A program made the position numbers and the translations under genes. Shown in pieces: positions 32,117 through 34,629 of a DNA stretch of 64,000 bases (the first letter of the stretch is position 1; each line of letters begins with the position of its first letter). This DNA comes from Clostridioides difficile (lineage in GTDB: Bacteria > Bacillota > Clostridia > Peptostreptococcales > Peptostreptococcaceae): NCBI RefSeq assembly GCF_001299635.1, contig NZ_JRHN01000054.1, positions 62,001 to 126,000 of the forward strand, in the 5' to 3' direction. The notes beneath the pieces are model-generated. The model was not told the DNA's origin and ran no database searches. It saw only the letters and a program-made list of their open reading frames with translations.

Positions 32117-32602
32117 TTACAAATCAGTATTTTCTATAAGTATTAAATATATTGTAGTATCTGTAATACCATTTTTCTCTGAATCTGTTAAACTCTTTTT
32201 AAATTCTCCATCTGTATATATTTTATTTTCACCTATATCACTTATTAATTTATCCATTTGTGCTTTTGTTAATGTAGCCTCTTCTACTTTAAGCCCTAAT
32301 TTGTTTCCAACAACGTTAAGTCCATATGATTTTCCTATATCTGGTTTAGTTGGTACAGTTTCCATATATCCATTAAGATCATCTAAATCATTTGCCGTAA
32401 CTGGCAATTTATTAGTGTCTGAATATAAAGACAATGCTGCACTCTTAACTGAACTATAATCAGACTCAACACTTGCTACCTTAGCTTTGTTTATATTACT
32501 AAATAAAGCTGGAACTGCTACTACTGCTAATATACCTATAATTGCAATTACTACCAATAATTCCACCAAAGTGAAACCTTTTTTATTCTTTCTTAACTTC
32601 AT
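32117..32602 (-). CDS. pilA1: Major type IV pilin PilA1
   Basis: A 161-residue prepilin. Leader MKLRKNKKG, then FTLVELLVVIAIIGILAVVA with glutamate at +5, so PilD cleaves after glycine 9. The mature protein has the long N-terminal helix and a hydrophilic head with no cysteine, as for C. difficile pilins. SD GAGGGGG precedes ATG 32602. It is preceded by a promoter, a c-di-GMP-II riboswitch and a roughly 280-nt leader, and followed by its own terminator. C. difficile PilA1 varies in sequence among strains. Confidence 0.94.
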   Translation of the reverse strand: MKLRKNKKGFTLVELLVVIAIIGILAVVAVPALFSNINKAKVASVESDYSSVKSAALSLYSDTNKLPVTANDLDDLNGYMETVPTKPDIGKSYGLNVVGNKLGLKVEEATLTKAQMDKLISDIGENKIYTDGEFKKSLTDSEKNGITDTTIYLILIENTDL

Positions 32603-32649
32603 TTTTATTCCCCCTCAATTTTTTTAATTAATACTTACTTATAATATAC

Positions 32650-32691
32650 CTGGTTAAAATCTAAGTAAAGTTATTTACACGTACTAACCAG
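32650..32691 (-). promoter_or_regulatory. Stem-loop in the pilA1 leader
   Basis: CTGGTTA (32650-32656) and TAACCAG (32685-32691) form a 7-bp stem between the riboswitch terminator and the pilA1 SD. It is not followed by a T tract. It might protect the processed pilA1 mRNA 5' end; this role is a guess. Confidence 0.4.
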
Positions 32692-32717
32692 ATTTATTTC
32701 TAGCATATAACCATTTT

Positions 32718-32845
32718 AAAACAAAAAATGCTATGAAAATAAAAGTATCCATAAATAAATACAATTCCATAGCCGGTTGCACCACTAACTCCATATGTCC
32801 CAAGGTGCCCAAATCACAGAACATATATCAACGTTTCTATTTTTA
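32718..32845 (-). promoter_or_regulatory. c-di-GMP-II riboswitch with terminator expression platform, upstream of pilA1
   Basis: Reading the minus strand, the class II (GEMM-II) core is recognisable: TTTGGGCACC (about 32804-32813), GAGTTAGT, GGTGCAACCGG (about 32775-32784), and 5' AGAAACG (about 32832-32838). GCACC pairs with GGTGC as in the published class. The 3' P1 strand GGCTATGG (about 32767-32774) can instead pair through GCTATG (32768-32773) with CATAGC (32730-32735), which is followed by ATTTTTTG. Ligand-stabilised P1 would prevent this terminator, so high c-di-GMP should turn pilA1 on. That agrees with published C. difficile work on c-di-GMP control of pili. Confidence 0.9.
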
Positions 32846-32889
32846 TTAAATTCAGGGTAATGCATAATTATATATACATATCCACTTAT

Positions 32890-32918
32890 ATTATATAATA
32901 GTTACCAAATTTTATCAA
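32890..32918 (-). promoter_or_regulatory. Sigma-A promoter of pilA1
   Basis: Minus strand: -35 TTGATA (32913-32918), 17-bp spacer, -10 TATAAT (32890-32895). Initiation near 32883 would place the riboswitch about 40 nt into the leader, which agrees with its role. Confidence 0.8.
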
Positions 32919-32992
32919 CTAAGTTTATATTATTTATATATACCAATTTTTTACATATTGAAACACAACTTCTAGAGATATTTATACTATAC

Positions 32993-33432
32993 AAAAAAGA
33001 AACATCTCCTTACAATTATCATATATCGTAAGGAGATATTTATAAATTATCATTTAGTTTTATCATCGTCATTTCCATCCTTTGCTAATATTTATTTGAA
33101 AGCTAGAAGCTATTACAATATAGTATTTTATTAAAATCATCTATTATAAACATTCTATCTCTTTTAATTATGATTCAGCCACAATCACTATATAAACGAA
33201 ATTCTTCATTTACAGATATGCTTATTGTGCAAAATTACTTTCTTTACAGTAACTTTATATAATCCAGAACCCTCTCACAAACATTAAAGATATAGAATAG
33301 ATACTATTTTCAATTCTTATAAATAAACTTTCAATAGATTTTTTTATTCCTTATAGATTGTGACTGAATCATTTAATTATTAAGGGTTCATCTTCTGACC
33401 TTCCCATTGGAAACACCTCTTTCTTTATTTAT
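32993..33432 (-). ncRNA. Candidate structured noncoding RNA with its own promoter and terminator
   Basis: About 440 nt lie between a good promoter (33439-33467) and a terminator (33004-33037), in a gap with no normal gene. A 16-nt segment (33356-33371) pairs with 33171-33186 through one G-U, closing a domain of about 200 nt. An imperfect extension into flanking TAATTA-type sequence is possible. GAACCC (33384-33389), outside this helix, can pair with GGGTTC (33267-33272) inside its loop, which would be a pseudoknot. The 5' end also holds an SD and a 12-codon frame (MGRSEDEPLIIK, ATG near 33406), and near the 3' end a 10-codon frame with an AAAGGATGG SD. I cannot assign a family. A raiA-like clostridial RNA of about 200-230 nt is one option to test. 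Confidence 0.6.
33004..33037 (-). terminator. Intrinsic terminator of the candidate ncRNA
   Basis: A perfect 10-bp stem (33004-33013 with 33028-33037), 14-base loop, then GTTTCTTTTTT on the minus strand. Confidence 0.85.
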
Positions 33433-33438
33433 ATTTAC

Positions 33439-33467
33439 ATAATACTACATAATCTGAAATTTTTCAA
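33439..33467 (-). promoter_or_regulatory. Sigma-A promoter of the candidate ncRNA
   Basis: Minus strand: -35 TTGAAA (33462-33467), exactly 17 bp, -10 TATTAT (33439-33444). No annotated gene follows within 800 bp, so it most likely serves the RNA at 32993-33432. Confidence 0.75.
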
Positions 33468-33623
33468 TACTTTTTCTAAATATTTTTTATATTCATAATA
33501 TTCATAATTTTATTTACTTCTTATACTTATTTTTACTTAAATTCACCAAAGTTTCAAACTATAATCCTTTTCTAAAATTACATATACACATCTAAAATAT
33601 TCCTATAAATTAAAATAACAAAA

Positions 33624-33664
33624 AAGAGTTGTCCAAAAGTTTTATATCCTTTTAAACAACTCTT
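33624..33664 (-). terminator. Intrinsic terminator after prs
   Basis: A 9-bp stem (33624-33632 with 33656-33664), with further A/T pairing inside, then TTTTTTGTTATTTT on the minus strand, 15 bp past the prs stop. This insulates prs from the ncRNA unit. Confidence 0.8.
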
Positions 33665-33678
33665 ATAAATCTAATAAA

Positions 33679-34629
33679 TTAGAATAATTTACTTACTGAT
33701 TCGTTAGAGAATATCATTCTTATAGCATCACCAAATAAAGGAGCTACAGTTTTTATCTTTATCTTATCAATTCTTTTCTCTTCAGGAAGTTGTATAGTAT
33801 CAAGAACTATTAACTCACTTATCTCTGAATTAGAAATTCTTTCAATAGCTGGTCCTGATAATACACCATGAGTACAACAAGCATAAACATCTTTTGCACC
33901 AAATTCTTTAAGTGCATTTGCTGCATTAACTATTGTTCCTGCTGTATCTATCATGTCATCTAATAGTATAACATTTTTACCTTTAACGTCACCTATTAAG
34001 TTCATAACTTCACATACATTAGCTTTTGGTCTTCTCTTATCTATTATAGCTATTGGCACTTCTCCATTTAAAGTATTGGCAAATTTTCTTGATCTAGTAA
34101 CACTTCCTAAATCAGGAGATACTACTACTAAATCTTCTATTTTCTTTTCATTGAAGTAATCTGCTAATATTGTTCCACCTAATAAGTGGTCTAGTGGTAT
34201 ATCAAAGTATCCTTGTATTTGAGCTGCATGTAAATCCATTGTTAATACTCTGTCTGCTCCAGCAGCAGTTATTAAGTTTGCAACTAATTTAGCAGTGATT
34301 GGATCTCTTGCCTTAGCTTTTCTGTCTTGTCTTGCATATCCATAGTAAGGAATAACTGCTGTTATTCTTCCTGCTGATGCTCTCTTTAATGCATCAATTA
34401 AGATTAATAACTCCATTAAGTTATCATTTACTGGACTATTAGTAGATTGTACTACAAACACATCACAACCTCTTACTGTCTCATTCATGTTTACACATAT
34501 TTCACCATCACTGAATGTACCTACTTCACAGTCTAGCACTGATACACCTATATAGTCAGCTATCTTCTGCGCTAACTCTTTCGATGAATTACCTGCAATA
34601 ATTTTAATCTCGCTTCCGCTAGTATTCAT
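33679..34629 (-). CDS. prs: Ribose-phosphate pyrophosphokinase
   Basis: A 316-residue enzyme making PRPP from ribose-5-phosphate and ATP for nucleotide, His, Trp and NAD synthesis. It has [20 protein letters not shown] at the N-terminus, the ATP-binding [20 protein letters not shown], and the PRPP loop [14 protein letters not shown]. Normal length, ATG with SD AGGAGGG. It follows glmU by 93 bp, the conserved glmU-prs pair. Its product also links to the purR and phn genes in this window. Confidence 0.97.

Follow-up and report, generated by a model that had tools for sequence, protein, structure and literature searches.

A predicted ~440-nt structured RNA of Clostridioides, encoded between prs and the c-di-GMP-II riboswitch of pilA1

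The window analyzed here is a 64,000-nucleotide stretch of a Clostridioides difficile genome, whose minus strand carries in order spoVG, glmU, prs (34629-33679), a predicted RNA, a c-di-GMP-II riboswitch, pilA1, and the pilus assembly genes. Coordinates refer to the window, and the RNA and its parts all lie on the minus strand. Pfam matches support prs, a pilin, two ATPases that we read as PilB and PilT, PilC, and a prepilin peptidase, with the gene names at the pilus locus assigned by interpretation of these matches. In two earlier reports, CD3513 is the pilin behind the riboswitch Cdi2_4 (PMC3649979) and CD3516 is spoVG (PMC7438776), and gene order suggests that prs is CD3514. The riboswitch, at 32762-32847 on the minus strand (RF01786, 75.9 bits), is the neighbor of the predicted RNA and is separate from it, and pilA1 is preceded by a separate promoter-like site, TTGATA-17-TATAAT, matching the consensus at 11 of 12 positions. 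Elsewhere in the window there is a T-box leader (RF00230, 112 bits) at 59473-59225 on the minus strand.

Between prs and the riboswitch lies a sigma-A type promoter, TTGAAA-17-TATTAT, at 33439-33467, and an intrinsic terminator at 33000-33041 (−20.3 kcal/mol), consisting of a 17 bp stem-loop followed by CTTTTTT. Both had been pointed out in an initial annotation of this DNA and both are present. The promoter is unremarkable in its consensus match, with 17 promoter-like sites in 32500-33800 compared with 10.9 expected; its two hexamers and the 17-nt length of the spacer are unchanged in all seven homologues. The terminator search returned a single candidate where 0.1 was expected from shuffled sequences. 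The annotation further held that no real gene lies between these two signals, and this is correct for open reading frames of at least 60 amino acids. If the start is placed from the −10 box and the end from the U tract, the RNA extends from 33432 to 32993, a length of ~440 nt. By prediction it has a promoter and terminator of its own, as an independent small RNA does, and the region between prs and the c-di-GMP-II/pilA1 leader is thus a predicted separate transcription unit, which we infer to be transcribed.

In an alignment of seven genomes 46 of the 433 ungapped columns of the RNA are variable (10.6%), as compared to 21% (67 of 322) of the third codon positions of prs. In the same seven genomes the c-di-GMP-II riboswitch varies at 10 of 85 columns (11.8%), the leader downstream of it at 13.9%, the RNA promoter region at 13.5%, and the segment from the pilA1 promoter to the riboswitch at 25%; the spacers are the least conserved, with 38% of 74 columns variable from the terminator to the pilA1 promoter, and 47% upstream of the RNA promoter. 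By these figures the constraint on the RNA is close to that on the riboswitch and the leader behind it. The aligned part of the pilA1 coding sequence (32602-32117) is 40% variable, far above the RNA, the riboswitch, and prs. Insertions and deletions of 1-2 nt occur inside the body of the RNA and argue against a single coding frame. A 21-nt stretch at 33078-33098 is predicted to be unpaired and is invariant at 20 of its 21 columns, making it a candidate interaction or ribosome-binding site. A second stretch of 44 nt, at 33338-33295 (alignment columns 89-132), shows no variation in the seven genomes and lacks a partner with which it pairs confidently; the pairing that RNAalifold gives to part of it would compete with the possible pseudoknot described below.

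A 461-nt stretch containing the RNA folds with a z-score of −4.48, none of 100 shuffled sequences being equally stable, and the P2 domain gives −4.55 (0 of 200). In the fold predicted from the window sequence by itself (the window-only fold), the closing helix P1 joins GUUUCCA at 33408-33414 to UGGAAAU at 33077-33071, and it never varies among the seven sequences. The helix P2 pairs 33371-33356 with 33186-33171, as the annotation had proposed, forming 16 bp with one G-U; two of its pairs vary, and both are retained through one-sided changes. Within P2 are two hairpins, P3 (33231-33256), where two pairs vary and both are kept, and P4 (33191-33214), where four vary and all are kept. P5 is an irregular hairpin at 33104-33157 with one varying pair that is kept; an inner pair of this arm, left out of the set of helices chosen for evaluation, is broken in two of the seven sequences.

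How well the alignment supports this fold depends on which pairs are counted. In seven chosen helices, with 78 pairs, all 546 cells are paired; no pair shows a compensatory double change among the seven sequences, and ten vary one-sidedly. All ten changes retain the pair where 38% would be expected to do so, a result that flatters the fold because the set was picked with the alignment in view, and pairs broken somewhere, including an outer pair of P2 and an inner pair of P5, were omitted. When every pair of the window-only fold is counted, 932 of 958 cells are paired and pairing survives 16 of 27 changes, with 33% expected for each (p about 0.004). The centroid fold gives 14 of 24 with 37% expected (p about 0.03), and the RNAalifold consensus contains no double change in 140 pairs, seven of which are broken or gapped in some sequence. 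Sliding the partners of the chosen helices lowers the paired fraction to 38-48%, a drop that is partly expected because the structure was derived from the sequence, and a shuffle control is uninformative because the changes are one-sided. The one-sided changes that are kept support P2, P3, P4, one pair of P5, and one pair of the terminator. Outside these core helices the predicted fold is poorly kept, with 11 of the 27 changes breaking a pair of the window-only fold, and several of the peripheral stems are probably wrong.

The annotation also drew attention to the segments GAACCC and GGGTTC, which are found at 33389-33384 and 33272-33267 and, in the RNA, could form a pseudoknot crossing P2. 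The folding program did not predict it. Both strands are without variation across the seven sequences, and 27 of 2000 shuffled sequences contain a 6-bp crossing helix with four or more G-C pairs, so the pseudoknot is plausible.

Of the eight genus genomes searched, seven contain the RNA, each as a single full-length match. A DNA search recovers full-length matches in 7 of 61 relatives and the same seven among 71 genomes of the family, and a covariance model of the P2 domain finds the same seven among 297 genomes of the order (with 8 candidates scored per listed genome, and 270 of the 297 genomes not listed singly); these three sets overlap, and each includes the genus member without the RNA, G004. 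An unfiltered search with the model, covering 24 loci, gave nominal E-values of 0.0048 (L035) and 0.011 (L012) for the two strongest matches outside the genus as compared to 1.3e-41 for the window copy, and these two alignments are missing most of P2 and were taken as chance matches of AT-rich DNA. A gapped pattern scan of genome contigs returned twelve stretches, two of which are C. difficile; two others (L068 and L072, with G+C contents of 0.525 and 0.477) look unrelated on reading, and the remaining eight were dismissed on organism name only. Neither a blastn search of phage and plasmid records nor a search of viral contigs for one exact 18-base pattern gave a match.

Thirty prs loci were read downstream (two of them offering just 195 and 300 bases), and seven have the RNA and 23 do not. 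An Rfam scan of 19 of these 23 identified eight loci with a c-di-GMP-II riboswitch, in six of which it lies between prs and the first pilin-like open reading frame, showing that the riboswitch-pilin unit exists independently of the RNA. Riboswitches of this class were also seen before later pilin-like reading frames, or two to a locus, at L053 (474-554 and 1285-1365), L046 (3207-3290), and L054 (3497-3579). The RNA itself looks like a gain in Clostridioides. In G004 (locus L040) prs is 100% identical (rounded), and 257 nt further on there is an open reading frame like the PilT of the window; no c-di-GMP-II match was found downstream of prs, and the best PilB match is 49% identical, this genome having no close PilB. 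The gene order and the scans together indicate that the RNA, the riboswitch, and pilA1 are jointly missing at the prs locus of G004.

No family of Rfam 15 reaches its gathering score over the RNA, either in the window or at four homologous loci, and the matches that overlap it are all far below their cut-offs; this agrees with the initial annotation, which had recognized no family. Its suggestion of a raiA-like RNA is not borne out, as raiA (RF03072) has no match in 32600-33700 up to an E-value of 10 and the one raiA match of the genome is on another contig (G000:C5:27989-28196, 183.6 bits), a position in agreement with a report that puts raiA of C. difficile beside CD0133/CD0134 (PMC11477304). 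The 6S RNA (RF00013) does not match here and is at G000:C24:36856-37036, and the c-di-GMP-II aptamer model (RF01786) does not match the RNA itself. On the opposite strand CRISPR-repeat models scored weakly, at 17.4 to 24 bits against cut-offs of 36 and 45; these scores, and one miRNA and one snoRNA score near 16 bits, were taken as chance. The RNA therefore appears to belong to none of the described families tested.

Among characterized systems, the raiA RNA (ModT) is similar in being an independent structured clostridial RNA of more than 200 nt with its own SigA promoter (PMC11706538), but it is widespread, being reported from more than 2,500 species, whereas the prs-pilA1 RNA was found in one genus. 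The Cdi2_4 riboswitch (RF01786) is the immediate neighbor, on the same strand and similarly conserved, but the two are separated by a terminator and a further promoter-like site, and the RNA is absent from relatives that keep the riboswitch. The intergenic small RNAs of C. difficile found by RNA-seq (PMC3649979, PMC11651100) are of the same kind, and in the first report most have no Rfam family. The names CD630_n01100, SQ2429, and SQ2503 were considered, and nothing found in PMC11651100 ties any of them to the prs-pilA1 interval. We found no RNA described at this interval in the portions of the open-access literature available to us, including those of PMC11706538, PMC3649979, PMC10267692, PMC11651100, PMC11477304, PMC8428550, and PMC7438776, and it may well stand in the supplementary lists of RNA-seq studies.

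We interpret these observations as indicating a Clostridioides-specific, independently transcribed, ~440-nt structured RNA that is most likely a trans-acting regulator, and put the probability of this reading at roughly 0.56. The trans action is inferred by exclusion of the alternatives. Several observations speak against this reading. A crude duplex between the RNA and the pilA1 leader, the sole target tried, is no better than in shuffled sequences in any of the seven genomes (30 to 95 of 100 were as good), in a weak test since the duplex program ignores internal folding. Compensatory double changes are absent among the seven sequences, the fold is poorly kept outside the core helices, and the RNA is missing from G004 along with the start of the pilus locus, which would fit a local role as well.

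A second reading gives the RNA a dual function, as a structured molecule and as the message for one or two tiny peptides, with P1 masking the regions where their translation would start. Two putative small open reading frames with ATG starts, each preceded by a Shine-Dalgarno-like sequence, are open in all seven homologues: sORF-A (MGRSEDEPLIIK, 12 codons, 33369-33407) is near the 5′ end of the RNA behind GAGGUG at 33419-33414, and sORF-B (MTMIKLNDNL, 10 codons, 33040-33072) is just before the terminator behind AAGGA at 33082-33078. In the window-only fold P1 pairs the spacer of sORF-A with the spacer and start of sORF-B, so linking the two start regions. The Shine-Dalgarno sequence of sORF-B is invariant and predicted to be unpaired, and the sole change in its coding sequence is synonymous. 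At least two such reading frames occur in 55 of 2000 shuffled sequences if a 5-base Shine-Dalgarno match is demanded, but in 224 of 2000 if four bases suffice; for sORF-B this control used an inner start that gives 8 codons, because the spacing of the 10-codon start in the alignment was beyond the limits set. Against coding, the variable columns of sORF-A are distributed 3, 2, and 2 over codon positions 1, 2, and 3 with no third-position bias, the peptides are very short, and constraint on the RNA alone could account for the invariance of both reading frames. The two conserved reading frames are a lead to possible peptide coding and could make the RNA an mRNA, and we consider the dual function unlikely. 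The layout would resemble that of RNAIII of Staphylococcus aureus, which is of similar length, has long-range pairing between its 5′ and 3′ regions, and contains an internal small open reading frame and no large gene; the prs-pilA1 RNA differs in lacking any Rfam match at cut-off. It is also conceivable, and in our estimation quite unlikely, that the RNA is a hub confined to Clostridioides, in which P1 masks two miniature starts and the pseudoknot locks the structure, such that, in the neighborhood of the pilus and c-di-GMP functions, opening of P1 would link translation of the peptides with an RNA acting in trans.

It is rather improbable that the RNA acts in cis on the pilus operon, as a long leader from which transcription occasionally passes the terminator and continues into the riboswitch and pilA1. 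It is adjacent to the operon and co-oriented with it, and G004 lacks the RNA, pilA1, and a close PilB together. However, the terminator is strong and no alternative partner for its arm was found beyond chance (173 of 300 shuffled sequences did as well), which offers no sign of antitermination. The poorly conserved spacer between the terminator and the pilA1 promoter, the separate promoter-like site of pilA1, and the six of 19 scanned relatives that lack the RNA but have the riboswitch ahead of the first pilin, downstream of prs, also argue against a leader. The initial annotation had favored a separate RNA, and this view holds up: the RNA has its own promoter and terminator, pilA1 is preceded by a separate promoter-like site and a riboswitch, and the relatives without the RNA show that a cis role is not needed.

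The size of the RNA, its long-range closure, the possible pseudoknot, and the invariant stretches without confident pairing would also be expected of a new class of large ornate RNA or ribozyme, one that works through its structure together with a protein or another RNA and not by pairing with mRNA. We regard this as very unlikely, as the searches located the RNA in a single genus, and it has a low G+C content and shows no compensatory double change among the seven sequences. That it is the non-functional remnant of a gene or mobile element since lost would fit a genus-specific gain with no homologue elsewhere in the searches made, but is hardly credible given that its variability is well below that of the flanks and of prs third positions, which largely refutes it, and that no phage or plasmid record matches and each of the seven genomes has a single full-length match.

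Returning to a trans-acting regulator, the RNA would fold into a closed body composed of P1 and of P2 around P3 and P4, possibly locked by the GAACCC/GGGUUC pseudoknot, with an exposed, AU-rich, and nearly invariant 3′ stretch preceding the terminator. The closed body may confer stability or bind a protein, and the exposed stretches may contact an mRNA or a chaperone. If it is expressed, an important gut pathogen would have a large, strongly constrained structured RNA that was not found in its relatives, and this RNA would provide a defined candidate for a genus-specific regulator encoded between prs and the c-di-GMP-controlled pilus operon.
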